Part shown: positions 8,705 to 64,000 of the stretch, one piece after another
Numbering within the stretch: position 1 is the stretch's first letter
How the letters are laid out: every line of letters starts with the position of its first letter
From: Larkinella terrae
GTDB taxonomy: Bacteria > Bacteroidota > Bacteroidia > Cytophagales > Spirosomataceae
Direction: 5' to 3'
Length of the DNA stretch: 64,000 bases
Assembly: GCF_009668025.1 (NCBI RefSeq)
Contig: NZ_WJXZ01000014.1
Location: 950,448 to 1,014,447 of the forward strand
Position numbers and translations under genes: made by a program
Notes under the pieces: model-generated
What the model saw: the letters and a program-made list of their open reading frames with translations, nothing else
Database searches by the model: none
Told to the model about the DNA's origin: nothing

Positions 8705-8727
8705 GTCGCTCGCGGCACGCGAGCGAC
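8705..8727. repeat. Perfect 10-bp-arm hairpin (CTCGCG type)
   Basis: GTCGCTCGCG (8705-8714) and CGCGAGCGAC (8718-8727) with a 3-base loop, followed by GGGCCTCTGGCCC-like and GTGCCAGAGG segments to about 8805. The same vocabulary (CTCGCG...CGCGAG arms, GGCC...GG core) appears in the 130-base structured element at 56278-56408, suggesting related intergenic repeats. Notably both are next to the two AT-rich regions. Confidence 0.6.
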
Positions 8728-50500: not shown

Positions 50501-50591
50501 GGGGAAGCTGGCTGGGCTGGGCCAGCAAACCGGTTTTTACGCTGAACAGCAGCAGCCAGCCAAACCCCCATGTCAGGATTTTATTCGCCAT
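47538..50591 (-). CDS. Beta-propeller sensor histidine kinase, LytS type (pair 2)
   Basis: A 1017-residue sensor. Signal peptide, two propellers (about 35-690; GQLWVGTYGGLDRFDG, GNIWAATNNGITRYD, GRIWFSSHQNGLFQFD), Y_Y_Y domain (about 700-775), a membrane helix (about 785-802), then a LytS-like kinase with His849 in NPHFLFNSL and N-box FENAIKHN. The glycine-rich G1 box is not canonical: VENNLQRK replaces DxGxG, as in many Bacteroidota LytS-like kinases. Its regulator is encoded 12 bases upstream. Input ligand unknown. Confidence 0.92.
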   Translation of the reverse strand: MANKILTWGFGWLLLFSVKTGLLAQPSQLPLEFHHIREQQGLSYNVVNTFLQDRDGQLWVGTYGGLDRFDGSHFTTFKADRQNPDKTLVNNIVHDLCQDNNGNIWAATNNGITRYDRKTGQFFNIRTAEGINLGQCLNIICDREGRIWFSSHQNGLFQFDPRKNIFCHYVHRPEDPASLSSNLVSKNGLVEDPKRPGLWVTMEDENGLNFVDAVSGQCYNYRNNPEKSPLFQPHGTSGVTLDGNSLLIFADNAAERIIVYNLDTKTVVKSIPLKTRSGQTAFPMATIFVDRNHNLWTSSWTYHMFFVEGKTYQPTEFFHDVAGKTSIAGDFFWAGWQQSDGTIWLGTVNGISYANPEKAFYRIHNLAQFLPELNQDEGLSSFLEDPDGSWWLTSVGHKLIHYDPVIRRAKIIPIPVPKDNVFRFNLPLVIASPDPNEFFICTLRAIYTFNKRTRKLKPFPLPKMVAERSNALNTLLLRQGNWLWLFATSDVVFQCYLPTKQWRTVPMPFGTGNRVRTRAAGFDRKGVLWADVLNRGIVRLSTDLQQFTNYPAQPRSTEFTDHFAFQVDEQNRLWSPVSGYGLVELNSQKNTFRTWTEQDGLCSNDVRAVCTDAYGHIWASSFNKLSIFNPARSSFQNFVLPVNDATINYINYLYNLRNRNILGMLKGYVIEFMPHRVNSQLVPTNVLISTVTQPDTTIVIQPQTTSLRLGVNNNNFSINYSALSLPQQSYTYFYKLDNYDDHWVRAGARSVANYTKIPGGKYVFRVKALVGRQETKETTLAIQVDTAFYNTIWFRIGMLLLLGGLIYGGYRYRIRQTSRLHHLKIQATRLERDKTEIQYQNLINHLNPHFLFNSLTSLNSLIITDPKQASRFLQKLSALYRYILQNRDRETVSLENEINFVQHYIILQKSRFEDGLQITIDVPEENLTRQIVPVTLQNLFENAIKHNTIDDDDPLKIRVFSEGEYLCVENNLQRKRFVETSNQQGLENLKTLYRYLSNLPLVITETETHFIVKVPMI

Positions 50592-50603
50592 AAGTCGGGG
50601 CTT

Positions 50604-51377
50604 TTACCGGTCGAGCCAGCGTTTAAAAACCGGTGCTTTCTGGCGACTGATGTCGATGGCCACCGCGTGGTGCGGAGCACTGAGTTTCAGAATTAACTTG
50701 GAATTGTGCAGACTGACCACGCTATGAATGGCGTCGGCATTGACGATAAACTGGCGGTTGGCGCGGTAAAACCGGTTCGGGTCGAGCAGTTCCTCCACCT
50801 GTTCGAGCGTTTCGTAATCCAGCGGATACCGCTCACTGGTTTTGGTGACCAGAAAAATCACCGAATCGTACTGGAAAAAAGCGATGTCGGCCACTTTGAC
50901 CGGCACCCAGCCCGTGCGGGCGTTTCCCAGAAACGTTTCTTTATACATTGGCTGCAGGGTGCCGGGCTGCTGCAGGGCGTCCATCAGTTTCTGCAGATTG
51001 ATGGGCAAACCGGCTTTCTGGCGGCTGAACTGGCGGGCTTTGGTTACGGCTTTGGCCAGATCGTCGGGTTCGACGGGCTTGAGCAGGTAATCGATGCCGT
51101 TCACCTTGAAAGCCTGAATGGCGTATTCATTGTATGAGGTAATAAAGATGATTGGGCAGGAAAGCTGAAAGGTTTCGAAAATCTGGAAACTCACGCCGTC
51201 GGCCAGCTGAATGTCGGCAAACACCACGTCGGGCTCGGCGTTTTCGCTGAACCAGCGGAGGGCGGTTTTGACGCTGGGCAGCGTTTCGATGATCCGGACA
51301 TCGGGGGCCACTTCGGCCAGTTTGAACGCAAACTCACGCGCTACGAGTTTTTCGTCTTCGATGACAACCGCATTCAT
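50604..51377 (-). CDS. LytTR response regulator (pair 2)
   Basis: A 257-residue response regulator: receiver with Asp55 (PDVVFADIQLADG), acidic pair in VIEDEK and Lys in YLLKPVEPDD; a linker of about 30 residues; then LytTR domain (about 150-255) with VPVKVADIAFFQYD and RFYRANRQFIVN. It is first in a two-gene operon with the propeller kinase, the reverse gene order of pair 1. Targets unknown; LytTR sites are tandem direct repeats. Confidence 0.92.
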   Translation of the reverse strand: MNAVVIEDEKLVAREFAFKLAEVAPDVRIIETLPSVKTALRWFSENAEPDVVFADIQLADGVSFQIFETFQLSCPIIFITSYNEYAIQAFKVNGIDYLLKPVEPDDLAKAVTKARQFSRQKAGLPINLQKLMDALQQPGTLQPMYKETFLGNARTGWVPVKVADIAFFQYDSVIFLVTKTSERYPLDYETLEQVEELLDPNRFYRANRQFIVNADAIHSVVSLHNSKLILKLSAPHHAVAIDISRQKAPVFKRWLDR

Positions 51378-51751
51378 ATCGTCAATGGAAAAGGAGTAAA
51401 ATTGTTTCTGGTCAAAACTTCCGAAAACAAAGCGATACTACGAAAAAAACGTCGTCGACTGGTCGTTAAACCGGATCAAAGCGTCAGCAATCCGGGTTAA
51501 ATGGTTTTCTGAGTAGGTACCCAAAAATAGTATAAAATACGGTTTTCAGGCGAAGAAGTTCGTGGCCAAAAAAGACGTTTGAACCGGGCGGTTTTGGCTA
51601 TACGTCGAGATCGTCGTCAGGAGGCCCGTTTCGTTAATCGAAATCCGGCTACTATTCAACCCCTGGATGAGCAGGTTGGAGGACAAATAGTTGCGTACGC
51701 AACTTACTATTGCCAATTTTGAACCCGAAATAATACAGTTTACGTGTAGTA
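51378..51751. other. Intergenic region upstream of globin with a palindrome
   Basis: 374 bases between the divergent LytTR regulator and globin genes. Apart from the 16-bp palindrome at 51689-51704 nothing distinctive is seen. Confidence 0.5.
51689..51704. promoter_or_regulatory. 16-bp perfect palindrome, candidate operator
   Basis: AGTTGCGTACGCAACT, 47 bases before the globin start codon. The size, symmetry and TTGC-N4-GCAA wording are like MarR-family operators, but no such regulator gene is in the window, so the assignment is inference. Confidence 0.4.
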
Positions 51752-52159
51752 ATGAAAGAAGAAGAAATCCGATTGGTAAAAAGAAGTTGGCAAATCCTGC
51801 GCAAAATAGATCCGATTCTGCTGGGCGATGTGTTTTATTCCCGGCTTTTTATAGATGCTCCCGGTTTACGACCGATGTTCGCTGCCCGAATGGATGGACA
51901 ATACCGCAAGCTGGTCGATATGCTCGATGCAATGGTGGCCAATCTGGACAAAACGGAAGTGCTGGTTGCCGAGTTGGGGGAATTGGGCCGCCGTCACATT
52001 GGCTACGGCGTGAAATCCCAGCACTACGATCTGGTGGGCAAAGCGCTCCTCTGGACGCTGGAAGTGGCTCTGGGCAACGACTGGAATTCGACACTCAAAA
52101 CTGCCTGGAAACAATGCTACCAGGAAATCAGTAAAGCCATGCAGCAGCCATCCCGCTGA
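51752..52159 (+). CDS. Single-domain globin (flavohaemoglobin-like haem domain)
   Basis: A 135-residue globin resembling the haem domain of flavohaemoglobins. Helix A/B LVKRSWQILRKIDPILLGDVFYSRLF carries the distal B10-type Tyr29; the proximal His is His82 in RRHIGYGVKSQHYDLVGKALLWTL. No FAD or NAD domain follows, so electrons must come from another reductase. Roles in the family are NO dioxygenation, oxygen binding or sensing. A dyad lies just upstream and a strong terminator just downstream, so it is a single-gene unit. Confidence 0.88.
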   Translation: MKEEEIRLVKRSWQILRKIDPILLGDVFYSRLFIDAPGLRPMFAARMDGQYRKLVDMLDAMVANLDKTEVLVAELGELGRRHIGYGVKSQHYDLVGKALLWTLEVALGNDWNSTLKTAWKQCYQEISKAMQQPSR

Positions 52160-52550
52160 AAACGAAAAAAATATCCACTTCATCAGCAGCCCACGGCCCA
52201 AAACCGTGGGCTTTTTTGCCCTGACAGCGCCGGGCCGTCGCTACGGTGAAACCCTGTCAGCGGCCCAAGTGTAGACTGCAACTGATCGGGCAGCTAACAG
52301 CGGCCCAAATCGGACGTTGAAACTGCCTGAATAAAAGGCTTATATCCAAAGACCGCTCCCCAACCGCATAGTTTTGTTACCCCAATCGGAAACGATTTCT
52401 GAAAACCATTCGAGTTCCGTTCGCGACATTCCAACGGCTTATTTCGACCAGTAGACTTCCTTTATTTTTCTACTTGTTACCCATCCGCCAAATTTGAATC
52501 GTCAATGTAGACAACAGAGTCAAACAAGTAGAATTGATCTCACTATCCTA
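52160..52550. other. Intergenic region: terminator, short repeats, possible promoter
   Basis: Holds the globin terminator (52188-52217), two similar AACAGCGGCCCAA/GTCAGCGGCCCAA blocks about 50 bases apart (near 52256 and 52306), and TAGTTTTG at 52369-52376, a match to the -7 consensus TAnnTTTG for the Rieske gene cluster. No gene seen. Confidence 0.45.
52188..52217 (+). terminator. Rho-independent terminator of globin gene
   Basis: AGCCCACGG (52188-52196) pairs with CCGTGGGCT (52204-52212), directly followed by a T-run. The stem sequence is the same repeat type as 3856-3879. Confidence 0.85.
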
Positions 52551-53015
52551 ATGAAAACAACACACCAAACGCTCGATCGTCGAACGTTCTTTTCACTGGT
52601 GGGAACCAGCATCGGAGCCATTGTGCTATCGAACTGCCTCAGCAGTTGTTCGGCCCCGGCCGAAGCCGTTTCGCCCGGCCCATCGACCGGCGGGACCACC
52701 GGTGGCAGCACGGGCCTGACGCTGAACCTGAACGATGCGGCCAATGCCAAGCTGAAACAGAACGGCGGTTTTCTCTACAAAAACGGCATGATCATCGCCC
52801 GCACCAAAGACGGTAGTTTCATCGCCGTGTCGCAGGTTTGCACCCACGCCGGAGTGACCGTCGAATTTGATGCCGCCGGAAACCGCATCCACTGCCCCGG
52901 CCACGGTTCCAATTTCAAGAACGACGGCAGCATCATCAACGGCCCGGCCGGTTCGCCCCTGAAAGCGTTTAAAACCACCTTCGATTCGACCTCCAACACC
53001 CTGAAGATCGGCTAA
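52551..53015 (+). CDS. Rieske [2Fe-2S] protein, exported
   Basis: A 154-residue Rieske protein; start 52551 (MKTTHQTLDRRTFFSLVG) gives a Tat-like twin-arginine leader (Arg10-Arg11) ending in LSSC, a possible lipid site. A Ser/Gly/Thr-rich linker follows, then the cluster ligands: Cys97 and His99 (VCTHAG), Cys115 and His118 (CPGHGS). It is small and unattached to a cytochrome b gene, so it is probably a periplasmic electron carrier or an arsenite-oxidase/dioxygenase-type accessory. First gene of a run of five extracytoplasmic or membrane proteins. Confidence 0.92.
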   Translation: MKTTHQTLDRRTFFSLVGTSIGAIVLSNCLSSCSAPAEAVSPGPSTGGTTGGSTGLTLNLNDAANAKLKQNGGFLYKNGMIIARTKDGSFIAVSQVCTHAGVTVEFDAAGNRIHCPGHGSNFKNDGSIINGPAGSPLKAFKTTFDSTSNTLKIG

Positions 53016-53047
53016 AACCGGCCACTTCTCCCAACTGCTACCTCCGT

Positions 53048-53935
53048 ATGAAACGACTGTTTATTCTGGCCTTTCTGGCTGGCGGGCCGGTTTTTGCCCA
53101 AACTGATCTGCTGTCCAACCTGGACGCCGAGCCCACAACGCGACCCGTTACGGCCACGTTCAAATCTACCCGGCTCCTGAATGGCCACACGGTAGAAACC
53201 ATCAAAGCCAAACACCTGGACTTCCGCATTTCGCACCGGTTCGACCGGATCAACAAAGGGGTCGACGAGTTTTTTGGCCTGGATTACGCCACCGTTCGGC
53301 TGGGGCTGGAATACGGCATCAACGACAACCTGACGTTTGGCATCGGCCGCAGCACCATCGAGAAAAATCTGGATAGCTACCTGAAAGCCAGGCTGATCCG
53401 CCAGACGAAAGGCAGCCGGTCGTTTCCGGTAACGATCTCGGCCCTGGGAACGCTGGCCCTGGACCCCCGCAAACCGGCGCAGGGAGGTGAGTTCAAAGTT
53501 TACTCAGAGCGGCTGGTCGGCAGCGGTCATTTGCTAATTGCCCGGAAGGTCAGCGAATCGTTTTCGCTGCAACTGATGCCGACGGCGATTTTCCGCCCCA
53601 GCCCGGTCAAACCGGGTCAGACGCAGGTTATTCCGTCGGTCGGAATCGGCGGTCGGCTGAAATTCAACAAACGCATGTCGATCAACGCCGAATACTATTG
53701 GGTCGATCAGAACCGGCTCAAAACCGGTCAGCCTTTCGCGACGTATAATCCGATAGCGTTAGGACTCGATATCGAAACCGGCGGCCACGTTTTCCAGCTC
53801 ATTTTCACCAATTCGTTCGGGATGATCGAGAAGCAGTTCCTGACGCAAACCGGCGGTGCTTTTGGCGGGCAGTTTGAAAAAGGCGACATCCATTTCGGTT
53901 TCAGCGTGTCGCGCACGTTCAGCTTCGACCATTAA
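53048..53935 (+). CDS. DUF5777-family beta-barrel protein
   Basis: A 295-residue protein with signal peptide MKRLFILAFLAGGPVFAQ. The body alternates polar and hydrophobic residues as in an outer-membrane barrel: LDFRISHRFDRINKGVDEFFGLDYATVRLGLEYGINDNLTFGIGRS, repeated basic/aromatic strands, and C-terminal VSRTFSF. This matches the DUF5777 family of Bacteroidota, always seen with Rieske/YceI/cytochrome-like genes. It begins 32 bases after the Rieske gene, so the two are cotranscribed. Function unknown. Confidence 0.82.
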   Translation: MKRLFILAFLAGGPVFAQTDLLSNLDAEPTTRPVTATFKSTRLLNGHTVETIKAKHLDFRISHRFDRINKGVDEFFGLDYATVRLGLEYGINDNLTFGIGRSTIEKNLDSYLKARLIRQTKGSRSFPVTISALGTLALDPRKPAQGGEFKVYSERLVGSGHLLIARKVSESFSLQLMPTAIFRPSPVKPGQTQVIPSVGIGGRLKFNKRMSINAEYYWVDQNRLKTGQPFATYNPIALGLDIETGGHVFQLIFTNSFGMIEKQFLTQTGGAFGGQFEKGDIHFGFSVSRTFSFDH

Positions 53936-53992
53936 TTTTTAGTCAATTCGTTTTATCCATTCCATTTTTCACACATTCCATTTTAAACAACA

Positions 53993-54544
53993 ATGAACCT
54001 ACGTACTCTCTTACTCGTAGCCGTGCCAGCACTGGCCATGAACATCACTGCCTCCGCTCAGGTCCTGTCGGCCAGCAAAGGCGAAAGCAAGTTTTTCTCC
54101 GAAACGCCCCTGGAAAACATCGCAGCCGCCAACAGCAAGGTAAAAGCCGCCCTGAATCCGGCGACGAACCAACTGGCCGTCAAAATGGCGATGACCGACT
54201 TCGAATTCCCGAACAAACTGATGCAGGAACACTTCAACGAAAACTACATCGAGTCGGAAAAATACCCCAATGCCAGCTTTGAAGGCACGATTAACGAAAA
54301 AATCGACTGGAAAAAACCGGGTACGTACCCCGTGACGGCCAAAGGAATGTTCGAAATCCACGGAGTCAAACAGCCCCGCACGCTGACCGGTAAACTGACG
54401 ATCGAGCCTGGTAAAATTACGCTGGTTTCGGATTTCATCGTGGCTTTGGAAGCGCACAAAATCGAAGTGCCGAAGCTGGTAATGATGAAAATTGCCGAGC
54501 AGATCAAGGTTCAGAATAAAGTGGAGTTCGCCAATAAAGGCTGA
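53993..54544 (+). CDS. YceI-family periplasmic lipocalin-like protein
   Basis: A 183-residue protein with signal peptide (MNLRTLLLVAVPALAMNITASA). The YceI fold is indicated by KGESKFFSETPLENIAAANSK, NKLMQEHFNENYIESEKYPNASFEG and VTAKGMFEIHGVKQPRTLTGKLTIE. Family members bind polyisoprenoids or similar lipids, and often accompany cytochrome or quinone-handling genes. It sits 57 bases after the DUF5777 gene in the redox cluster. Confidence 0.92.
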   Translation: MNLRTLLLVAVPALAMNITASAQVLSASKGESKFFSETPLENIAAANSKVKAALNPATNQLAVKMAMTDFEFPNKLMQEHFNENYIESEKYPNASFEGTINEKIDWKKPGTYPVTAKGMFEIHGVKQPRTLTGKLTIEPGKITLVSDFIVALEAHKIEVPKLVMMKIAEQIKVQNKVEFANKG

Positions 54545-54580
54545 TTCCGAGCGATCTCCACCCTCTAAATACCACCGTCC

Positions 54581-54766
54581 ATGTTGCTGTTTCTTGGATT
54601 ATCCTCCGCCGATCTGATCTTCTACACGTTCCTGCTGCTGTTGCTTGGAGTTGTCTTTCTCTACGTCAAGGTGAAACGGATTTTCGGGCCGGGAACCGAT
54701 TACGACAGCGACTATTCGGACATGGACTGGGACACCTCCGATTACGACGGAGATGGGGAAGATTAA
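54581..54766 (+). CDS. Small membrane protein with acidic tail
   Basis: A 61-residue protein: one membrane helix (about 9-29, ADLIFYTFLLLLLGVVFLYVK), a short basic stretch (KVKRIFG), then a tail of Asp/Ser/Tyr repeats (DYDSDYSDMDWD..., about 12 acidic residues). It starts 36 bases after the YceI gene. No family recognised; the tail could bind metal or protons, which is only a suggestion. Confidence 0.6.
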   Translation: MLLFLGLSSADLIFYTFLLLLLGVVFLYVKVKRIFGPGTDYDSDYSDMDWDTSDYDGDGED

Positions 54767-54776
54767 GCAAAATAAA

Positions 54777-54852
54777 ACTCCTGAATCCCCTGAAGGGGAC
54801 TTGGACTCGGCTAATCCGGATTTGAGAGTTCCCTTCAGGGGATTTAGGAGTA
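54777..54852. repeat. REPIN-like element, diverged copy
   Basis: ACTCCTGAATCCCCTGAAGGGG (from 54777) and its inverted partner CCCTTCAGGGGATTTAGGAGT (to 54852) flank a short spacer. Same architecture as the C5-A2-C5 copies but with a diverged flank (GAATCCCC for CAACCCCC). Confidence 0.75.
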
Positions 54853-54925
54853 ACTCGCCGTAACTTTTTGATTTCCAATTAAGTAGTCCAGTTTTTTCAA
54901 TTTATCCACCATTTATTAAAAAACA

Positions 54926-55699
54926 ATGAATACGTTTTTGAACAACTCTTTTAAATCACTTGCATTAGCCGCCATCGTCGGTTTCGCGATTCTCCAGGCC
55001 TGTCAGACCAGCTCCGATTCGCCCGCGCCCGCCGGACCGGCCGCCAACATCGACGTTCGGCAGGATGGTAAATTTGGTCAGGTGCTGACCGACGGTTCGG
55101 GCAATACGCTTTATCTGTTTGCCAAGGATGTCGACGGCAAGAGCAATTGTTCCGGCGGTTGCACGGATGTCTGGCCCGTGTTCTACGAAAAAAACCGGGT
55201 TTTCAATTCCAGCCTGGATTCGACGCAGTTCGGCGTCATTACCCGCGCCGATGGCAGCAAACAAAACACCTTCAAAGGCTGGCCGTTGTACCGCTTTGCG
55301 CAGGATACCAAAGCCGGTGACGTCAACGGCGAAGGCAAGAATAGCTTCTACGTGGCAAAACCGGATTATACCGTGATGGTGGCCGACAAAGGCGCCGGGA
55401 AATACCTAGTCGGAATTGGTGGCCGGACGCTCTACACCTTCACCGGTGATACCGACGATGTGAGCAACTGCAAGGATGGCTGTCTGACCGTCTGGCCGCA
55501 GTTTCTGGCCCAGCCGTCGGCCATTGCGCCTTCGACACTGAACGGCGTGTTCTTCGGTTCGATCAGCCGCGCCGATGGCACCAAACAAACCACGGCCAAC
55601 AAAAAACCGCTGTACTATTTCCAGAATGACGTCGTGCGCGGTGACGTAAAAGGCACGGCGGCCAACCCCAAATTCGTCATGGTGGCTCCCGCACAGTAA
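54926..55699 (+). CDS. COG4315-type repeat lipoprotein
   Basis: A 257-residue lipoprotein (signal SLALAAIVGFAILQAC). The mature protein carries four copies of the family's Yx(F/W/Y)xxD signature: YLFAKD, YRFAQD, YTFTGD and YYFQND, arranged as two double units each containing a Cys pair (NCSGGCTDVWP and NCKDGCLTVWP). Function of the family is unknown, but it is repeatedly linked to extracytoplasmic redox proteins. It closes the Rieske/DUF5777/YceI run and is followed by a strong terminator. Confidence 0.88.
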   Translation: MNTFLNNSFKSLALAAIVGFAILQACQTSSDSPAPAGPAANIDVRQDGKFGQVLTDGSGNTLYLFAKDVDGKSNCSGGCTDVWPVFYEKNRVFNSSLDSTQFGVITRADGSKQNTFKGWPLYRFAQDTKAGDVNGEGKNSFYVAKPDYTVMVADKGAGKYLVGIGGRTLYTFTGDTDDVSNCKDGCLTVWPQFLAQPSAIAPSTLNGVFFGSISRADGTKQTTANKKPLYYFQNDVVRGDVKGTAANPKFVMVAPAQ

Positions 55700-55712
55700 G
55701 CAACCGATTTCG

Positions 55713-55742
55713 CCGGACGGTTTCGAAACCGTCCGGTTTTTT
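55713..55742 (+). terminator. Rho-independent terminator
   Basis: CCGGACGGTTTC (55713-55724) and GAAACCGTCCGG (55725-55736) followed by a T-run, 14 bases after the COG4315-type gene. Confidence 0.85.
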
Positions 55743-55764
55743 CCACTCTTCACCTCACGCAATC

Positions 55765-56190
55765 ATGTCAGTCATTGAAAAAAATAAAGAACTCGCCCAA
55801 TTGTGGCTTCAGCTCGTCAGCGAAGGGAAAATCGAGGAACTCTGCGCGCTGACGCACCCGGAATGGAAAATGTACGGCGGTCCGCCGGTGATGCCTTCCG
55901 GCCCCGACGGAATCCGCTTTCTGTTCGGCACTTTCGATCACGTCGATCAGCTTTGGGAGGTGAACCTGATGCTGGCCGAAGGCGATCTGGTGGCGGTGCG
56001 GGCTACTAACACCTGCCTGCAGAACAGCTTTTTCGGTATTCCGGCGCAGGGCAAACAACAGGTTTTTACGTCGACTTTCATCTTTCACATCGTCGATGGC
56101 CTGATGATCCAAACCTGGCGAAACGCCGACGACCTGGGCCGCGTCCTGCAGCTCGGCGCCAAACTGGTTCCTGCCACTGCCGAAGTTTAA
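55765..56190 (+). CDS. SnoaL-like/NTF2-fold protein
   Basis: A 141-residue protein of the SnoaL-like polyketide cyclase/NTF2 superfamily: ELAQLWLQLVSEGKIEELCALTHPEWKMYGG at the start, GDLVAVRATNTCLQNSFFGIPAQGKQ in the centre and FHIVDGLMIQTWRNADDLGRVLQLG at the end. The fold binds small hydrophobic ligands; activity not predictable. It begins 23 bases after a terminator, so it needs its own promoter or readthrough. It is unrelated in close detail to the SnoaL-like protein at 28182. Confidence 0.82.
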   Translation: MSVIEKNKELAQLWLQLVSEGKIEELCALTHPEWKMYGGPPVMPSGPDGIRFLFGTFDHVDQLWEVNLMLAEGDLVAVRATNTCLQNSFFGIPAQGKQQVFTSTFIFHIVDGLMIQTWRNADDLGRVLQLGAKLVPATAEV

Positions 56191-56560
56191 GTACCGGTTT
56201 TCAACCTTCGTTATTCGGTGTTCGTTATTCGATATTCCTTGCTTTTTGCCCCAGTTCCAATGGGAAAAATCGGTTTTCGCTCGCGTGTCGCGAGTGAGGA
56301 TTATCTATCAATAGAGACCCTGGTCCGATCATAGCCACTAACAGGTGATCGAAGACAAAGTTCGGGCCGGAGGTCCTTAAAATAGACCTCACTCGCGACA
56401 CGCGAGCGAGAACGGAGGAAATTGCCCCGAAATCGTGAAAGTTTTTCATTATTTAGTTTGGTAGCTTAAAAAAAATACATTTATTGATTGTTTAACCACT
56501 TGCTTGTCACAGTACCAAAGGATTCTTATTATAAATGATATTTAATGAATTATACTAAAA
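56191..56560. other. Boundary region: structured repeat then AT-rich DNA
   Basis: Contains the 130-base inverted-repeat element (56278-56408); from about 56430 the sequence turns AT-rich, marking the left edge of the island with the P-loop and radical SAM genes. No gene seen. Confidence 0.6.
56278..56408. repeat. Structured element with 22-bp perfect arms
   Basis: CGCTCGCGTGTCGCGAGTGAGG (two parts: 56278-56290 and on to 56299) is exactly complementary to 56387-56408. Each arm has its own CTCGCG/CGCGAG dyad, and the 87-base centre has a GGACCTCCGGCCC-like segment. The hairpin near 8705 shares the same wording. Confidence 0.75.
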
Positions 56561-57088
56561 ATGAAAATAGTAATTACTGGTACTTATTGTTCGGGGAAAA
56601 CGACACTTTGCTATGATTTAATTCAGGCGATCCCCAACTGTAAGCTATTGCTGGAGGAAGCAAGGGAAATTTCAGACCTGATTCCTCCAGATGGCTGGTC
56701 ACTGCCAGCTATTCGGGAGTATTTACTTGTCAGGCAAATCCTTAATGAAAAAAGAAATGAAAAAGATGATAAATTATTAATTTGTGATAATGGCGTACAT
56801 GGGAATTTAGCGCATGATTCTCTACTGACAAAAGAGGTAAATAATATTCTGTTATTGGATCAACTTGACCATATTAACTATGATCTCGTTTTCTTCTGTG
56901 ATCATCATGAAGTCGCCATTGAGCAGGATGGAGTCCGGCTTGTAGACCCCTTTTTGCGGGAAAGAGCTGCCGAAGAGATCCTGAAGTTCATTGAGCTGTT
57001 AGGCTCTAAACCAATCATATTATTCGGAGATCGTGAGCAGAGAGTTAGAGCTGTTCTTCGGCACTTACCGTTTAATATGACGAATTAA
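56561..57088 (+). CDS. Small P-loop NTPase, kinase-like (AAA_28/NadR-like)
   Basis: A 175-residue protein with Walker A GTYCSGKTT (residues 7-15) and the fold pattern of NadR-type ribosylnicotinamide kinases: an early LLEEAREISD segment, LLICDNG as a Walker B-like strand, YDLVFFCDHHEVAIEQDGVRLVD and LFGDREQRVRAVL at the end. It probably phosphorylates a nucleoside-like or other small substrate; the exact one is unknown. AT-rich like its neighbours. Its 3' end overlaps the convergent membrane-protein gene by 17 bases. Confidence 0.8.
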   Translation: MKIVITGTYCSGKTTLCYDLIQAIPNCKLLLEEAREISDLIPPDGWSLPAIREYLLVRQILNEKRNEKDDKLLICDNGVHGNLAHDSLLTKEVNNILLLDQLDHINYDLVFFCDHHEVAIEQDGVRLVDPFLRERAAEEILKFIELLGSKPIILFGDREQRVRAVLRHLPFNMTN

Positions 57089-58127
57089 TGTTGCTTTTCC
57101 GAGCGCTTTTGGCATACTGTATTAATACGGCTTCAATTCCTTTAATAACGGAATAAATACTTAAATAAAAAACTTCTTCTTCTTCTTCTCCCAAAGGGAT
57201 TACTGTTTTATCAGGAGAACTAATCGATACGACAGCGACACAACTACCAGGGAATTCCTCTTTATATACATCTTTCTTTATCGAAACGAAAAAATGAGCT
57301 TTAGAACTTTCATAGCTCTGCGTAGGCCGTCCACTAAAATATCCTGGCTCTCCATCTTTTGGTCGGTAATATTTCTTATTCCGGTTATTTTCGATATCTA
57401 GATTAATTGCCTTTTCGTAATAGGAAGAAGTGCCATTTATTTTCCATTTTGTGTATTTTTCTAAATACTGTCTGCGATCTTCGGAAATACGTTTAACTGC
57501 CAAAATTTTGATCGTACCGTTAAAACCAGGTACTACAATCGAAATACGGACTTCTTTCTCACGCATTTTTAAAGGGAATCGCTTTTCTAGCTCTTCTAAA
57601 AGTCGATTAAGGAGGTTTTGTACATCTGGCCAGTCGAAAGGTTTACTTAAATAGAAGACCCGGTTAATTTTGATTAATTGTTGCCATAGATCCCGTTCTT
57701 GCTGAAGAGTTATGTTGAGTTTTATATTGGTATTAATTAATTCTAGCTGCGTTTTTTTAGCAAACGCATCAGCTTCTTCCATTTTTATTTTAATGCTTGC
57801 CATGTCGATCTTTGCTCTCTCTTCGACGGTTTGCAAATCTGTTTTTGATTTTTCTGTTACTATTATTAATTCTTTTTTTAATTCATCTTCAGTCAATCTT
57901 AGCGCATTGTTTTCTTTGTAAAGATGGTAAAACAAATAGGCAAACAGGAATAGAATACAACTTAAAGCTATGATTGTTATTTTTGGGTCAAAAAAATTTA
58001 ATACTGTATTTAAGTTTTCCGAAGTATCTTTTAGGCCATTAAAAGTTGAAATAATAGAAATAAAAGCGTATAAGCTACCAATGACGTATATAGTAATCTG
58101 GAGCGCTTTTCTGACGTTTACCTTCAT
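57072..58127 (-). CDS. Two-helix membrane protein with coiled coil and GAF-like domain
   Basis: A 351-residue protein of unrecognised family. Two membrane helices (about 8-28 and 50-70) bracket a short loop, then a coiled coil of about 80 residues (ENNALRLTEDELKKELIIVTEKSK...), then a mixed alpha/beta domain (about 160-350) with VRISIVVPGF, IKILAVKRIS, KAHFFVSIKKD and GSCVAVVSISSPDK, which looks like a GAF-type sensor fold facing the cytoplasm. AT-rich. It starts 3 bases after the radical SAM gene's stop, so the two are cotranscribed. A signal-sensing role is inferred. Confidence 0.7.
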   Translation of the reverse strand: MKVNVRKALQITIYVIGSLYAFISIISTFNGLKDTSENLNTVLNFFDPKITIIALSCILFLFAYLFYHLYKENNALRLTEDELKKELIIVTEKSKTDLQTVEERAKIDMASIKIKMEEADAFAKKTQLELINTNIKLNITLQQERDLWQQLIKINRVFYLSKPFDWPDVQNLLNRLLEELEKRFPLKMREKEVRISIVVPGFNGTIKILAVKRISEDRRQYLEKYTKWKINGTSSYYEKAINLDIENNRNKKYYRPKDGEPGYFSGRPTQSYESSKAHFFVSIKKDVYKEEFPGSCVAVVSISSPDKTVIPLGEEEEEVFYLSIYSVIKGIEAVLIQYAKSARKSNINSSY

Positions 58128-58130
58128 TGG

Positions 58131-59480
58131 TTACGGGAGGGCTTTTAATAGGGAAATTACCTGATCACTAAAGAAAAACTCGGCAATCAAATCTCTATAT
58201 TTAATTCCATCTTCTGTTAAATTTATGGAATCCGGAAATATATTTATTAATTCTCTATTTCGAAGAAATAGAAGTTCTTCACCAAAATCATTGATGACAT
58301 CATTGCCAAAGATCTCCTTATACCAAGCCCGATTAAGCGAATGCAAACCAAGTATAACTGCCTTTCGCTTTCTTTCCTCCCAGTTTAGTACAAAACCATC
58401 AGCGATCGGGTTAATTCCCATTTCAACATGCTGTATGTATTCATGCAGTACATTCTTTCTGGCGACTAAATTGTAACCGTTTCTTGTATCGCAATTCCAC
58501 AGATAACTCCTTGCCCCTGCCCCAAACCCCAAAATATTTTCTAGCCTCCAGTGATTTTCTTTTTGTTTATATCCCCCTCCATCCTTAATATACCGAACGT
58601 TTGTTTCACGACGATAGCCACTACCAATTAAAAGATCGTTAGCCAATACAAACTTTTCATATTGGCTGAATCCATCCACAGACGTATATCCTTTCGCACT
58701 GAAGCCCGTATTTGGCCTTAAAGTAAGTGGATAGATACAAATTGTTTCGGGATTAAATTGGATAACTGTTTGTAAAGATGTAAGCCAGTTTTGGGTACTT
58801 TGATTTGGGAAACCATATATCAAATCAATACAGGTATTGGGTATGTTAACTTTTTTAATAATATCAAAAGCCTTGTGAAGCTGATAATTACCGTGTTTGC
58901 GATTAATTTCTTTAAGTTCTGTATCTTCAGTTGTCTGAAAACCCAGATTTACCCGATTAAGCCCGAGCTCTTTCAAATGGGTAAACTTAATTTCCTCAAC
59001 CGTATCAGGTGCAACCTCTAATGCAATCTCTGCTGACTTTTCTATTGAAAGCGAAGTTATTTTAACAAATAACCTTTCAAAATTGGATAGAGAAAGTAAA
59101 GATGGAGTGCCACCGCCAATATAGATAGTCCTGATTCTTTTCTCATTAATTAAAGGCAATAAATTATCAAATTCTTTAAGTAAGGTGGTGACGTAATTTG
59201 TATGCATTTCCTCATTTTCTGATTTCATGGCATATAAATTACAGAACGAACAGATTTGTCTACAGAAAGGAATATGGAAATACAAATTCAATACATTAAA
59301 TTGATGAACTGAATCAATTGCTAATGCAGGTAATTCTGGATGCTCCGAACTATAGGTTTGTCTTGGAGGATATGAATAAATATAGTCACCCTTAATATTT
59401 TTGGCTATTGCTGCTTCTAAGTCACGCTCTCGATCCTTAAGAATAAATAGTTTCATAATAAAATTTTTGAGCCTTTTCAA
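58131..59480 (-). CDS. Radical SAM enzyme, HemN/HemW-like
   Basis: A 449-residue radical SAM protein. The cluster motif is C73-x3-C77-x2-C80 in HIPFCRQICSFC, followed by GGGTPSLLS (SAM-binding) and LNRVNLGFQTTED, the hallmarks of the coproporphyrinogen oxidase/HemW group. A C-terminal HemN_C-like part has GFGAGARSYL. It has a 65-residue N-terminal extension beyond HemW, is AT-rich, and is cotranscribed with a membrane sensor-like gene, so it is probably not the housekeeping heme chaperone. ATG 59456 is an alternative start. Substrate unknown. Confidence 0.85.
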   Translation of the reverse strand: MKRLKNFIMKLFILKDRERDLEAAIAKNIKGDYIYSYPPRQTYSSEHPELPALAIDSVHQFNVLNLYFHIPFCRQICSFCNLYAMKSENEEMHTNYVTTLLKEFDNLLPLINEKRIRTIYIGGGTPSLLSLSNFERLFVKITSLSIEKSAEIALEVAPDTVEEIKFTHLKELGLNRVNLGFQTTEDTELKEINRKHGNYQLHKAFDIIKKVNIPNTCIDLIYGFPNQSTQNWLTSLQTVIQFNPETICIYPLTLRPNTGFSAKGYTSVDGFSQYEKFVLANDLLIGSGYRRETNVRYIKDGGGYKQKENHWRLENILGFGAGARSYLWNCDTRNGYNLVARKNVLHEYIQHVEMGINPIADGFVLNWEERKRKAVILGLHSLNRAWYKEIFGNDVINDFGEELLFLRNRELINIFPDSINLTEDGIKYRDLIAEFFFSDQVISLLKALP

Positions 59481-59653
59481 GAATGCTAAAAATAAGCTTT
59501 TTTGGTAAGGTGTCAGTATTAAATTTGGAATTTTTTCGTAAACTTACCTTATTTTCCCCGATCGCGACGGTTTCAGCCGGACTTGGAAGAATAAAACCAT
59601 AAACCGCTACCTTTTGCGGCTTTTTATTAAAATTGCTAATATTTTGACCCAAC

Positions 59654-60178
59654 ATGGACAACCGCAGATACCCCATCGGTCTCTTCCAGTACAAGGAATC
59701 GTACTCGCCGGAAGAAATAAAGCAGTTCATTTCCATTATCGAAACGATTCCCGCCAGCTACCGGCTGCTGGTTGAGGACCTGGCGCCGGAAGATCTGGGC
59801 CGAACCTACCGGGAGGGAAGCTGGACGATTCAGCAACTGATTCACCACGTCAGCGACATTCAGCTGGTTCACTTCTTTCGGATGAAAAAAGCGCTGACTG
59901 AGCCTGATTATGAGGTCGTAACGCTCATCAACATGGACAAATGGGTGGAAACGCCCGACGGAAAAACCGCCCCGATCGAGGATTCGCTGGTGTCGTTTGA
60001 CAGCATCACGCGTCGCTACGTTTACCTGATGAAATCGCTGACGGACGAGCAGTTGGCGATCAAATACTACCACCCGGTTCGGAAAATCTGGTTCGATCAG
60101 GCGCAGGCCATTGCGATCTCGGCCTGGCACACGCAGCACCACCTGGCGCACATCAAACTGGCGTTGTCGGACGAGTAG
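59654..60178 (+). CDS. DinB-superfamily protein, YfiT/bacillithiol transferase-like
   Basis: A 174-residue four-helix-bundle metalloprotein. Family wording is clear: MDNRRYPIGLFQYKESYSPEEI at the start, EGSWTIQQLIHHVSDIQ with His metal ligand, and ISAWHTQHHLAHIKLAL with the C-terminal His pair. The YfiT/BstA group are metal-dependent thiol transferases or hydrolases. GC-richer than the island to its left, so it is the right edge of resident DNA. It is divergent from the radical SAM gene across a 173-base gap. Confidence 0.9.
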   Translation: MDNRRYPIGLFQYKESYSPEEIKQFISIIETIPASYRLLVEDLAPEDLGRTYREGSWTIQQLIHHVSDIQLVHFFRMKKALTEPDYEVVTLINMDKWVETPDGKTAPIEDSLVSFDSITRRYVYLMKSLTDEQLAIKYYHPVRKIWFDQAQAIAISAWHTQHHLAHIKLALSDE

Positions 60179-60333
60179 GAGGGACTGAAAAACCGCCCGC
60201 CAAAACCGGACATCGCTTGTCCGAAACCGTACAGGAGATTTTTTGAAATCGGCCTCCAGCGCTTGATAGGCCGGTTTTTGGGCCGTGGTACGATAGTTGA
60301 GCGTTTGATTGCGCGTCCGCAAACTTCCCGACT

Positions 60334-62724
60334 ATGCTGCAGAATTACTTCAAAATTGCCTGGCGAAACCTGATTCGAAACAAGACGTACAGCCTCCTGA
60401 CGCTGCTGGGCTTAGCTACCGGCATGACCTGCGTCCTCCTGCTCGGTCTGTACGTCCGGGATGAGCTGAGTTACGACCGGTATCATAAAAAAGCCGCTCA
60501 TATTTACCGGGTCAATCTGGACATTCGCTGGGCGGATAATGAATACAAACTCGGCATTGCTTCGGCACCCATGGGGCCAGCCCTGCAACATGAGTACCCG
60601 GAAATCGGGAATGTGCTGCGGGTAAAAACCGGGAATGAAAACCTGTTCCGGGCGGGCGAAAAAGCGCTGTACGTCAAGCACCTGATCTATGCCGACTCGA
60701 CGCTGTTTTCGTTCTTTGATTACACTTTCATCGCAGGCAGCCCCAAAACCGCCCTGATGCATCCGAACAGCGTGGTGCTGACCCGAAAACTGGCGATGAA
60801 TCTGTTTGGAAAAACGGACGGTTTGTTGGGAAAAACCGTTCTCTTCAAAGAAAATCAGCCTTTTACGGTAGCCGGAGTCATCAGCGATGTGCCGGGCAAT
60901 CATCACCTGAAATTCGACGCCATTCTGCCATACACCAACCCAAAAGCCAGCGGCATCCGGCTCGAAAAATGGGACAGTTTCAATTCGGCAGTTTACGTTT
61001 TACTGAATCAGGAAAGCGATCGGTCCCGGCTGGAACGTAAAATGCCAGCCTTCTATAAAAAATATATTGCCAATGCCATCGGCGATGACAGTCGTTCTAA
61101 AGTAAAATTCAACATCACGTTCCAGCCGCTGACGGACATGCACCTGCGGTCGACCCACCTGATGGGCGAAGAAAACGGGAGTACGATGGCCTACGTGTAC
61201 ACCTTCTCGGCCATCGGTTTGTTCATTTTACTCATCGCAATCGTCAATTACGTCAATCTGGCAACCGCCCGCTCGGCCGGACGCGCGAAGGAAATCGGTG
61301 TCCGAAAGGCCATTGGGTCGCTGAAAATTCACCTCGTGGCGCAGTTTCTGACGGAATCCCTCTTGCTGTCGTTTTTAGCCACCTTCGTCAGCCTGACGCT
61401 GCTATATACGCTCCTGCCTTTTTTCAATCTGATTGCCGACAAATCACTCTCGCTGGACTTCCGGGACTGGGAAACTGCCGGATTCCTGACGGTTTTTACG
61501 ATCTTGGTCGGTTTGGTCAGCGGACTTTACCCCGCATTTATTCTGTCCCGATTCAAACCGGTTTCGGTGCTGAAAGGAGGTTTCACCGGCAGCGGAAAGG
61601 GGGCATTGCTGCGGAAATCGCTGGTGGTGCTGCAATTCGCCATTTCGATGGTGATGATCGTGGGCACGATCGTCGTGTACCGGCAGTTGCAATACATGCG
61701 AACGACGCAGCTGGGCTTCAATCAGGAACAGGTCATTTCGCTGGCTCTCAAATCGCCTTCGGTGCAGGAGTCGGCCACGATTTTGAAAACCAGGTTGTTA
61801 CAGAATGGTTTGATTGCAGGTGCGAGCCTGACGAACGGGTCGGTTGGGGGGGAGATCAACGACAAAACGACCTACAGTTTTTACGTCGACGGAAAAGAGC
61901 AACCCGTCAGCACGGAACATTTCGCCGTGGATGCCGACTTCCTGAATGTATTGAAAATCAAGGTGAAAGAAGGACGGAATTTCTCGCCGGATCTGAGCAG
62001 TGATTCCACGGGGGCGGTTCTGGTCAACGAAGCAATGCTCCGGCGGCTGGGCTGGAAAAACCGGACGACCGGCTTGATTGAAGTAAACGAAAAGAAAGTA
62101 GCGATTGCCGGGGTCATCCATGATTTTCACCTGCGCTCGCTCCACAACCAGATCGAACCGCTGCTGCTGGAGATGAGCCGGGAAAAAGGCGATCATCTGC
62201 TCATCCGGGTGGCTCCGAAAAACATTCCGGCGGCTCTGGCGTACGTGCAGAAGATGTTTGAAGCGGTGAATCCAAATCAGCCGTTTGAATACGCCTTTCT
62301 GGATCAGACGTTTGCCGAACAATACCGCTCCGACGAACGGAAAGGCGGTTTATTCCTGGCCTTTTCGGGAATTGCCATTTTCATTGCGTGCCTCGGCCTG
62401 TTTGGTCTGGCGGCTTTCACGGCCGAGCAACGCAAGAAAGAAATCGGCGTTCGGAAGGTTTTGGGCGCATCGGTGTCCAGCGTCGTCGCGCTGTTGTCGC
62501 AGGATTTCCTGAAACTGGTGTTGATGGGCATTGTGCTGGCAATACCGGTTGGCTGGTACGTCATGCGGCAGTGGCTCACGGATTTCGCCTACAAGATCGA
62601 CCTTGACTGGTGGGTGTTCGCGCTGGCGGGCTCGCTGGCGTTGCTGATTGCGTTGCTCACGGTCATTTTCCAGAGTGTCAAAACCGCATTGATGAATCCC
62701 GTAAAGAGCTTGCGGGCCGAGTGA
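60334..62724 (+). CDS. MacB/FtsX-like ABC transporter permease
   Basis: A 796-residue permease, paralogue of the one at 45055. N-terminal helix (YFKIAWRNLIRNKTYSLLTLLGLATGMTCVLLLGLYV), MacB_PCD domain (about 55-270), FtsX helices with TARSAGRAKEIGVRKAIGS, a second periplasmic domain (about 470-670), and C-terminal FtsX helices with AEQRKKEIGVRKVLGASVSSVV. No ATPase gene nearby. Family role: energised extracytoplasmic movement for efflux or lipoprotein/peptide handling. The next gene starts 42 bases later. Confidence 0.9.
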   Translation: MLQNYFKIAWRNLIRNKTYSLLTLLGLATGMTCVLLLGLYVRDELSYDRYHKKAAHIYRVNLDIRWADNEYKLGIASAPMGPALQHEYPEIGNVLRVKTGNENLFRAGEKALYVKHLIYADSTLFSFFDYTFIAGSPKTALMHPNSVVLTRKLAMNLFGKTDGLLGKTVLFKENQPFTVAGVISDVPGNHHLKFDAILPYTNPKASGIRLEKWDSFNSAVYVLLNQESDRSRLERKMPAFYKKYIANAIGDDSRSKVKFNITFQPLTDMHLRSTHLMGEENGSTMAYVYTFSAIGLFILLIAIVNYVNLATARSAGRAKEIGVRKAIGSLKIHLVAQFLTESLLLSFLATFVSLTLLYTLLPFFNLIADKSLSLDFRDWETAGFLTVFTILVGLVSGLYPAFILSRFKPVSVLKGGFTGSGKGALLRKSLVVLQFAISMVMIVGTIVVYRQLQYMRTTQLGFNQEQVISLALKSPSVQESATILKTRLLQNGLIAGASLTNGSVGGEINDKTTYSFYVDGKEQPVSTEHFAVDADFLNVLKIKVKEGRNFSPDLSSDSTGAVLVNEAMLRRLGWKNRTTGLIEVNEKKVAIAGVIHDFHLRSLHNQIEPLLLEMSREKGDHLLIRVAPKNIPAALAYVQKMFEAVNPNQPFEYAFLDQTFAEQYRSDERKGGLFLAFSGIAIFIACLGLFGLAAFTAEQRKKEIGVRKVLGASVSSVVALLSQDFLKLVLMGIVLAIPVGWYVMRQWLTDFAYKIDLDWWVFALAGSLALLIALLTVIFQSVKTALMNPVKSLRAE

Positions 62725-62766
62725 AAAAACTGCCTGAATCTTCCTTTTCATAACCTATCCCCAACC

Positions 62767-63675
62767 ATGAAGTTGCTTCAAGCTCTATCGGTTTGTTTAC
62801 TAATGACTTTTGAAACGATCGGCCAGCGGGCGATGCCGGTTTCGTCGATGTACCTGAATCAAAAACCGCCCGGTCGGGTTGCGGAAGTGTTTGCGCCGGG
62901 GACGGTTTCGGCGAAAGATACCTACGAATACGGCTCCGTTTTTTCGAAAGACGGCCGGGAGTTTTACTACGCCGTGATCATCAATAAAAAACCGCAAATC
63001 CGGCTGATTCGGTTTGAAAACAACCGCTGGACGGAACCGGCCATTGTCCTGGCCAGCGATCAGTACGAATACAATGACCCGTTTTTGTCACCCGACGGAT
63101 CGAAGCTGTTTTTCATTTCGGATCGCGTGGCCGACGGCAAAGGCCCCAAAAAGGATTTTGACATCTGGTACATCAACCGGACCAAAACCGGTTGGGATTC
63201 CTCCCGGATTATCAGCGCCGGAAAGTCCATCAATGCCGGAAAAAACGAATACTACATGTCGTTTACAACCAGCGGAACGATGTATTTCTCGTCGAACCGG
63301 GAAACCGGTCAGGCCAACGACAACAATTACGACGTGTATTCGTCCCGGTTTTCGAAGGGGGAATTTCAGCCCGCGCAGAAGCTCGACGCAGCAGTCAACA
63401 GCGATCATTACGAAGCCGACGTGTTTGTGGCACCCGACGAGTCGTACCTGATTTTTTGCGCCGAACGGCCCGATGGTTTGGGAAAAGGCGATCTGTTCAT
63501 CAGCTTTAAAGACGCGAACGGCGGGTGGCAGAAAGCCAAAAACATGGGCAGCGCCGTCAACACCGACCAATACGAGTTTTGCCCCTTCGTTTCCAGTGAC
63601 GGAAAATACCTGTTTTTCAGCCGAAGCGGGGATATTTTCTGGGTCAGCGCTGAGGTTATCCAGGCCCTTCGGTAA
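62767..63675 (+). CDS. Exported PD40/TolB-like beta-propeller protein
   Basis: A 302-residue protein with a short signal peptide (MKLLQALSVCLLMTFETIGQ). Repeated PD40 strands follow: EYGSVFSKDGREFYYAV, YEYNDPFLSPDGSKLFFISDR, KNEYYMSFTTSGTMYFSSNR, HYEADVFVAPDESYLIFCAERPDGLGKGDLFISF and YEFCPFVSSDGKYLFFSR, about six blades. Such proteins act as periplasmic binding or scaffold proteins. It follows the MacB-like permease by 42 bases and may serve it. Confidence 0.85.
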   Translation: MKLLQALSVCLLMTFETIGQRAMPVSSMYLNQKPPGRVAEVFAPGTVSAKDTYEYGSVFSKDGREFYYAVIINKKPQIRLIRFENNRWTEPAIVLASDQYEYNDPFLSPDGSKLFFISDRVADGKGPKKDFDIWYINRTKTGWDSSRIISAGKSINAGKNEYYMSFTTSGTMYFSSNRETGQANDNNYDVYSSRFSKGEFQPAQKLDAAVNSDHYEADVFVAPDESYLIFCAERPDGLGKGDLFISFKDANGGWQKAKNMGSAVNTDQYEFCPFVSSDGKYLFFSRSGDIFWVSAEVIQALR

Positions 63676-63677
63676 TA

Positions 63678-63744
63678 GGCCCCCAACCCCCTGAAGGGGG
63701 CTGCTAAATCAGGTTTCATAAAGCCCTTTTAGGGGGTTGGGGGC
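63678..63744. repeat. REPIN-like element, copy next to terminator
   Basis: GCCCCCAACCCCCTGAAGGGGGC (from 63678) and, after a short spacer, AAGCCCTTTTAGGGGGTTGGGGGC (to 63744). It begins 3 bases after the PD40 gene's stop. Confidence 0.8.
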
Positions 63745-63745
63745 A

Positions 63746-63781
63746 AAAAAGCCGCAAACGGAATCCGTTTGCGGCTTTTTT
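63746..63781. terminator. Bidirectional terminator
   Basis: AAAAAGCCGCAAACGGA (63746-63762) and its complement (63764-63780): a stem with A-run before and T-run after, between the convergent PD40 and oxidoreductase genes. Confidence 0.9.
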
Positions 63782-63790
63782 GATGATCCA

Positions 63791-64000
63791 CTACCGTCCG
63801 GCAATTCGCCAGCCGTCGCGGTAAATTCGGCTCAGATACCGCTCCGCGTCGGGATTATTCGGGAATTTCATTTTGGCTGAATCCCATTCCAGCAGCTTGC
63901 CCGGCACGCGAATGGCCACCGTTCCCAGTAGAATCGCTTCGGTCATGGGGCCGGATTGGGCAAAGTGCGACTCGGTTTTTTCACCACCCAGGCAGGCATC
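63791..64000 (-). CDS. Gfo/Idh/MocA family oxidoreductase, C-terminal part (5' truncated by window)
   Basis: Only the last 69 codons are inside the window. The reading (DACLGGEKTESHFAQSG, MTEAILLGTVAIR, KLLEWDSAKMKF, RIYRDGWRIAGR, then TAG) matches the C-terminal end of Bacteroidota Gfo/Idh/MocA oxidoreductases, whose ending PMTEAILLG.VA.R...LEWD is conserved. The catalytic and NAD-binding parts are off the edge. Related by family to the gene at 2452. Confidence 0.8.
   Translation of the reverse strand, partial: DACLGGEKTESHFAQSGPMTEAILLGTVAIRVPGKLLEWDSAKMKFPNNPDAERYLSRIYRDGWRIAGR

Follow-up and report, generated by a model that had tools for sequence, protein, structure and literature searches.

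An AT-rich island of Larkinella terrae holds a kinase and membrane protein pair, also found on a Parabacteroides distasonis plasmid, beside a radical SAM gene

A stretch of 64,000 nucleotides of Larkinella terrae DNA (contig NZ_WJXZ01000014.1, positions 950,448 to 1,014,447; hereafter the window) contains an AT-rich island of ~3 kb that holds three genes. They encode a P-loop kinase that appears to be of the NadR type, a membrane protein with two predicted helices, and a radical S-adenosylmethionine (SAM) enzyme. Relatives of the kinase and the membrane protein lie side by side on a plasmid of Parabacteroides distasonis, a gut bacterium from a distant lineage of the Bacteroidota, and on sequence similarity we take this pair to be real. 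The anatomy of the island and the conservation of the pair, taken alone, are held with high confidence. The features are as follows.

56430..59550, no strand: AT-rich island; edges approximate, from composition and comparison with congeners
56561..57088, plus strand: kinase, probably a NadR-type P-loop protein, AAA_28 by Pfam, 175 residues
56579..56605, plus strand: G-T-Y-C-S-G-K-T-T, Walker A, an intact P-loop by sequence motif
56909..56938, plus strand: E-V-A-I-x-x-D-G-x-R motif, common to the P. distasonis kinase by alignment
57072..58127, minus strand: membrane protein, 351 residues; two predicted N-terminal helices, then a charged linker, then a C-terminal domain that belongs to none of the known families
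57108..57560, minus strand: region of homology with the P. distasonis protein, the C-terminal domain of the membrane protein (roughly residues 190-340)
57222-57254, minus strand: [FY]-P-G-x-C-x-A-x-V-S-I within that domain, common to both homologues by alignment
57924..58106, minus strand: predicted membrane helices, residues 8-26 and residues 50-68, with the intervening loop, from hydropathy only
58131..59480, minus strand: radical SAM enzyme, probably a deep relative of the STM4012 family, 449 residues, TTG start, with an in-frame ATG at 59456
59241..59264, minus strand: C-x3-C-x2-C iron-sulphur motif, residues 73-80, intact by sequence and alignment

Composition and gain of the island

The guanine plus cytosine (GC) content of the island is 35%, against a window mean of 52%. 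Per 500-base step it is 0.31-0.41 inside ~56400-59550 and 0.54-0.56 just outside. The 3-kb GC content (64 kb, steps of 100) has its window minimum, 0.350, at start 56501; over the window the mean is 0.520 and the standard deviation 0.043. GC at third codon positions (GC3) is 0.37, 0.29 and 0.30 for the kinase, membrane and radical SAM genes, while the neighbours on either side, SnoaL and DinB, have 0.68 and 0.75. The kinase and membrane genes are convergent and overlap by 17 bases (57072-57088), while the membrane and radical SAM genes, both on the minus strand, are separated by 3 bases (58128-58130). The initial annotation had described such a three-gene AT-rich island, and the open reading frame (ORF) positions and the GC profile confirm it.

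Horizontal gain of the island, also proposed there, is supported by its composition, by an island-free site in the congener G449, and by a kinase profile that, in a set of nine genomes from the genus, has a match (E<=1e-5) in the host genome alone. G449 keeps the left-hand SnoaL gene ~290 bases from the DinB gene, the spacing in the window being 3,463; its site is therefore island-free. On the right of the island, the DinB-family gene is found in eight of the nine genus genomes at E<=1e-40, own included. In the seven others, tblastn at 1e-10 against the 15-16 kb that surround this gene detected not one of the three genes. The left neighbour SnoaL was not seen in the stretch examined in the six congeners other than G449. 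The right edge lies near 59550, where sequence begins that by eye resembles the region upstream of DinB in the congener G462; the left edge, ~56430, is approximate.

No direct repeats at both island edges are among the 12 families listed at 56100-59700, no tRNA lies at 50000-64000, and Rfam gives no match within 56180-59700. Defence or mobile genes had been suggested as neighbours to look for; none of the six flanking ORFs scanned at 53993-63675 matches such families in Pfam.

At the left edge there is one further feature.

56270..56416, no strand: inverted repeat at the island left edge, arms 56270-56304 and 56382-56416

A near-palindrome at 8707-8725 is related to this repeat, which may be a host repeat element outside the module. 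The near-palindrome begins 39 bases after a second AT-rich gene (7534-8667, plus strand, GC 0.29). The encoded protein of 377 residues has hydrophobic stretches near both ends, by eye, matches no Pfam family at E<=0.1, and is unrelated to the island membrane protein. The repeat pattern occurs at just two sites in the 64 kb (four matches with <=2 mismatches; in 100 shuffles the mean is 0.02 and the largest 2), and both AT-rich blocks therefore adjoin the element.

The kinase and membrane protein pair

Among 72,556 plasmid records, the window kinase matches one in tblastn at E<=1e-3 (2e-27, 37.5% identity). The membrane protein likewise matches one at E<=0.01 (6e-3, weak alone), and it is the same record: plasmid NZ_CP143950.1 of P. 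distasonis DFI.5.23, on which the two genes are adjacent and overlapping. Aligned pairwise, the two membrane proteins give a BLASTP value of 2e-10 and a local alignment score of 125, compared with <=58 in 1000 shuffles. The P. distasonis membrane protein matches itself only among the same plasmid records (E<=0.01). The initial annotation regarded the three genes as one set. The link between kinase and membrane protein does recur; the exact trio was found at no other locus among the databases searched. The conserved unit thus seems to be the kinase and membrane protein, with an exchangeable radical SAM partner, as seen in two cases only, and this suggests a portable gene pair. A limited literature search, of openly licensed papers only, found no account of the pair.

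The kinase is, as judged from its sequence, probably a divergent NadR-type P-loop protein. It exceeds the Pfam AAA_28 cut-off (65.3 bits vs 27) and can be aligned with NadR kinase domains, two features that it shares with ribosylnicotinamide kinases of the NadR type. Such kinases often come with PnuC; this one has no PnuC neighbour. In the kinase tree the window and P. distasonis proteins, 38% identical, form a group (91/93, short of the tool's mark of 95, with the window on a long branch) apart from the PnuC-linked NadR-type kinases. Their common E-V-A-I-x-x-D-G-x-R motif aligns with the D-G-L-R part of the host's own NadR. The NCBIfam NadR model TIGR01526 does not list the window kinase at E<=1 and gives the P. 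distasonis kinase 43.6 bits vs a cut-off of 341; this model spans an additional domain, which puts the cut-off out of range for a kinase alone. In the PDB, the window kinase has no match at 0.1, and a two-row profile of both kinases finds weak matches to nicotinamide riboside kinase 1 and a nicotinamide-nucleotide adenylyltransferase (0.0045-0.022).

Relatives of the kinase are rare in the genome samples scanned with its profile, which overlap. The profile finds no kinase but the window's own in a phylum sample (395 genomes, E<=1e-12) and a family sample (180 genomes, 1e-8), nothing in 234 genomes of the class of G026 (1e-8), and the own kinase with three PnuC-linked kinases in 203 genomes of the order (1e-8). 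The kinase relatives in G858, G874 and G891 adjoin PnuC-like genes by eye, and so do those of Persicobacter (by eye) and Nostoc (annotated), which were found with the P. distasonis kinase; all five were accordingly rejected as members of the pair. Neither the window kinase (E<=1e-3) nor that of P. distasonis (E<=0.01) has a match among phage records. The host genome has three AAA_28 matches, namely a NadR-like protein, the window kinase and a weaker one (31.9 bits) that by eye is deoxynucleoside-kinase-like. The host keeps its own PnuC-NadR-like pair (L058) elsewhere, and the window kinase was thus rejected as the only NadR of the genome.

The P. distasonis membrane protein has helices predicted by hydropathy at residues 11-29 and 49-67, close to those of the window protein, and the similarity scored by BLASTP between the two is in the C-terminal domain. 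The window protein has no family over the curated cut-offs of Pfam and NCBIfam, none in PADLOC at E<=1, and none in PHROGs below 0.03. Its description as GAF-like finds no Pfam support, either for the whole protein or for the C-terminal domains of both homologues, which match no family at E<=10, GAF included. No transporter family is over cut-off, the best being an NCBIfam nucleoside transporter at 16.3 bits vs 297.5. In 395 genomes of the phylum the membrane protein was found in its own genome only, apart from a match in G369 (4.6e-7, residues 80-212) that was rejected as chance, with four stops inside.

Pattern scans found no relative in viral contigs (seven scans) and confirmed none in genome contigs (two scans); the patterns were few and those for the membrane protein lie in poorly conserved stretches, which makes this weak evidence of absence. 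A phylum sample aimed at genomes near P. distasonis has none that is close as judged by HemW, for which nine of 61 have a match at 1e-100, with 46% identity at most.

On the P. distasonis plasmid the pair is part of a run of genes on the same strand. The run begins with sugar and capsule-type genes and a small cupin gene, followed by the kinase, the membrane protein, a (d)CMP-kinase-like protein, a radical SAM/SPASM protein, a dehydrogenase and a hypoxanthine phosphoribosyltransferase. The (d)CMP kinase (TIGR02173) and the hypoxanthine phosphoribosyltransferase (TIGR01203) are TIGRFAM calls over cut-off. From spacing and overlaps, we infer that the last six genes form one operon. A radical SAM gene is thus within two genes of the membrane gene at both pair loci, which suggests a link between the pair and radical SAM enzymes.

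Two side observations concern this run. The (d)CMP-kinase-like protein (L006:6471-7388) has a C-terminal extension with the stretch G-H-K-R-C-S-A-A, which looks to us like a ParB-type motif; Pfam gives ParBc_2 only at E 0.16. The radical SAM protein matched 36 plasmid records, 35 of them from Rhizobium, where a cluster (L049:7319-13270, L050) holds a phosphoribosyltransferase, a radical SAM protein, two small proteins, a nucleotidyltransferase, a PRPP (phosphoribosyl pyrophosphate) synthetase and a dehydrogenase.

The radical SAM enzyme of the island

The third island protein exceeds the Pfam PF04055 cut-off (75.1 bits vs 29.5), and its GGGTP motif is intact, as is the C-x3-C-x2-C motif. Both motifs and the superfamily are common to HemW and HemN. 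The enzyme reaches neither the HemW model TIGR00539 (195.2 vs a cut-off of 205.4) nor the HemN model TIGR00538 (153.5 vs 325), and it falls outside the HemW clade. The best NCBIfam model is STM4012 (NF006067), with 292.2 bits over residues 32-444, below the curated cut-off of 380. The similarity to this family is full-length and includes an N-terminal Y-[SG]-Y-P motif. In a 13-row tree the window protein joins six STM4012 rows (97/95), among which its branch is long and the deepest, and four HemW rows stand separately; the tree tool cautions that long rows have an uncertain position, and the placement in the STM4012 clade is not firm. A Rhizobium gallicum protein from a seventh locus is outside that clade. 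The scores and grouping indicate that the enzyme is not a HemW and that the name HemN/HemW-like given by the initial annotation is better narrowed to STM4012-like, for a divergent protein on a deep branch beside the STM4012 family.

The gene neighbourhood sets the enzyme apart from that family, for no STM4011, STM4013, STM4014 or STM4015 gene is among the window neighbours scanned. STM4011-4015 neighbours are present at four of the six STM4012 loci read (annotated at L054, L055 and L057, and by eye from unannotated ORFs at L045). The other two, on Rhizobium tropici and Cupriavidus plasmids (L052:4980-7297, L053:4971-7306), have a class I methyltransferase instead, so these neighbours are not strictly defining. 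No such methyltransferase is at the window locus either.

Plasmid records matching the enzyme at 1e-20 number 243, of which nine loci were inspected; the best matches are named STM4012 and have <=31.9% identity. In 200 genomes of the family only its own is found at E<=1e-60. At 1e-42 there are matches in 20 of 296 phylum genomes, own included (best other 172 bits; the G088 locus was inspected). Of 50,697 phage records, 36 match at 1e-10, with 27.8% identity at best.

The initial annotation asked whether an orthodox HemW exists elsewhere in the genome. The host does have a HemW-clade protein (L046, in the four-row HemW clade), and the window enzyme was thus rejected as the only HemW of the genome. 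There is also a HemN-like protein (L047), a name that we take from its motif. With HemW-, HemN- and PnuC-NadR-like genes elsewhere in the host, none of the three island genes is the housekeeping copy.

A possible function and its alternatives

We propose that the island is a cassette of three genes, acquired horizontally, whose task is to handle a small molecule resembling a nucleoside. The proposal starts from the gene content, the motifs and the conserved pair, and supposes a substrate, an order of steps, and a role and orientation of the membrane protein. The radical SAM enzyme would make or alter a nucleoside-like compound, and the NadR-type kinase would phosphorylate a nucleoside or a similar compound. 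The membrane protein with its two helices, its C-terminal domain presumably cytosolic, would bind the product and couple it to the membrane as a receptor or effector. The initial annotation had read the membrane protein as a putative sensor that would gate the radical SAM chemistry. The kinase and membrane protein would be the portable pair and the radical SAM enzyme an exchangeable chemistry module. The mechanism as a whole is tentative, and we regard it as somewhat doubtful.

Several observations weigh against this proposal. The pair is known at only two loci, and its orientation differs between them, convergent in the window and on the same strand in P. distasonis. The two radical SAM enzymes show no significant similarity in BLASTP; since they are dissimilar, one of the two co-occurrences could be chance. 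The closest PHROG to the window kinase is a thymidylate kinase family (3e-9), with a NadR family behind (1.8e-5). AlphaFold2 single-sequence models of the C-terminal domain are poor (pLDDT, the predicted local distance difference test, 37 and 38) and have no assignable fold. In addition, kin of the P. distasonis proteins occur on their own. Rhizobium plasmids carry a radical SAM protein of 39% identity and, nearby, a related dehydrogenase (33%), in neighbourhoods with an adenine phosphoribosyltransferase and a PRPP synthetase and without the pair (two of 35 Rhizobium records inspected). Rhodococcus kin of the (d)CMP-kinase-like protein, which also matched one Natronorubrum record, have no radical SAM protein among their annotated neighbours (three of four records inspected). 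The run of P. distasonis is thus mosaic, with the pair among its modules.

These data also bear on a rival explanation, in which the pair alone is a unit, the radical SAM gene of the window is a separate acquisition, and that of P. distasonis belongs to a nucleotide operon of its own. The different families of the two enzymes and the Rhizobium kin with their dehydrogenase, found without the pair, fit it. Yet the membrane and radical SAM genes of the window share a strand, lie 3 bases apart and are alike in GC and GC3, and both loci place a radical SAM gene no more than two genes away from the membrane gene. We consider this explanation rather unlikely. Alternatively, the genes may be part of natural product synthesis or salvage, in a pathway whose metabolite or cofactor resembles a nucleoside, with the membrane protein as a scaffold or transporter accessory and no part in defence or signalling. 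Other kinase relatives adjoin PnuC-like genes, and the P. distasonis run includes a phosphoribosyltransferase, a dehydrogenase and a radical SAM protein that matches cytosylglucuronate decarboxylase (9.2e-11). Three genes nevertheless look too few for a pathway, and the membrane protein has no transporter family over cut-off; such a metabolic role is unlikely in our judgement.

A further alternative is a role in anti-phage defence. Viperins produce a modified nucleotide that is toxic to the polymerases of phages, and in the prokaryotic viperin layout, as PADLOC model names also suggest, the radical SAM enzyme is near a P-loop nucleotide kinase. The island has the same general layout, and it is sporadic, AT-rich and horizontally gained. 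Its radical SAM enzyme and kinase might then yield a modified nucleotide that either acts on phage polymerases in this way or sets off the membrane protein, with its two helices, as an effector. At the P. distasonis locus, PADLOC matches the (d)CMP-kinase-like protein to pVip-kinase (1.2e-23), VakA (3.7e-13) and PDC-M51B (5e-4), and the radical SAM protein to pVip (1.9e-18, 64.9 bits). Among the 14 PDB matches of the latter are viperin (1.8e-8) and an enzyme that resembles it (2.1e-8). MoaA, however, scores as high as pVip (65.9 bits), and these defence matches are therefore at the level of the superfamily. Of the three island proteins, unlike those of prokaryotic viperin systems, none matches pVip or VakA at E<=1. 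The window radical SAM enzyme matches part of the model PDC-M51A (4.7e-10, 36.8 bits) of the PADLOC candidate PDC-M51; the kinase differs from that candidate in having no PDC-M51B match at E<=1, and gives weak P-loop matches only (0.012 and worse). The flanking ORFs scanned add no defence gene. A defence role is possible, not supported, and this explanation too we regard as unlikely.

A bolder extension of the cassette proposal is that the pair is an undescribed portable receptor or effector that plugs into unrelated radical SAM chemistries. A modified nucleoside would be made, phosphorylated and bound by the C-terminal domain, which would then act on the membrane, as in second-messenger immunity, with a signal made by a radical SAM enzyme replacing the cyclic nucleotide. 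We think this quite improbable. Were the pair both real and general, radical SAM nucleotide chemistry would be tied to a membrane protein via a dedicated kinase.

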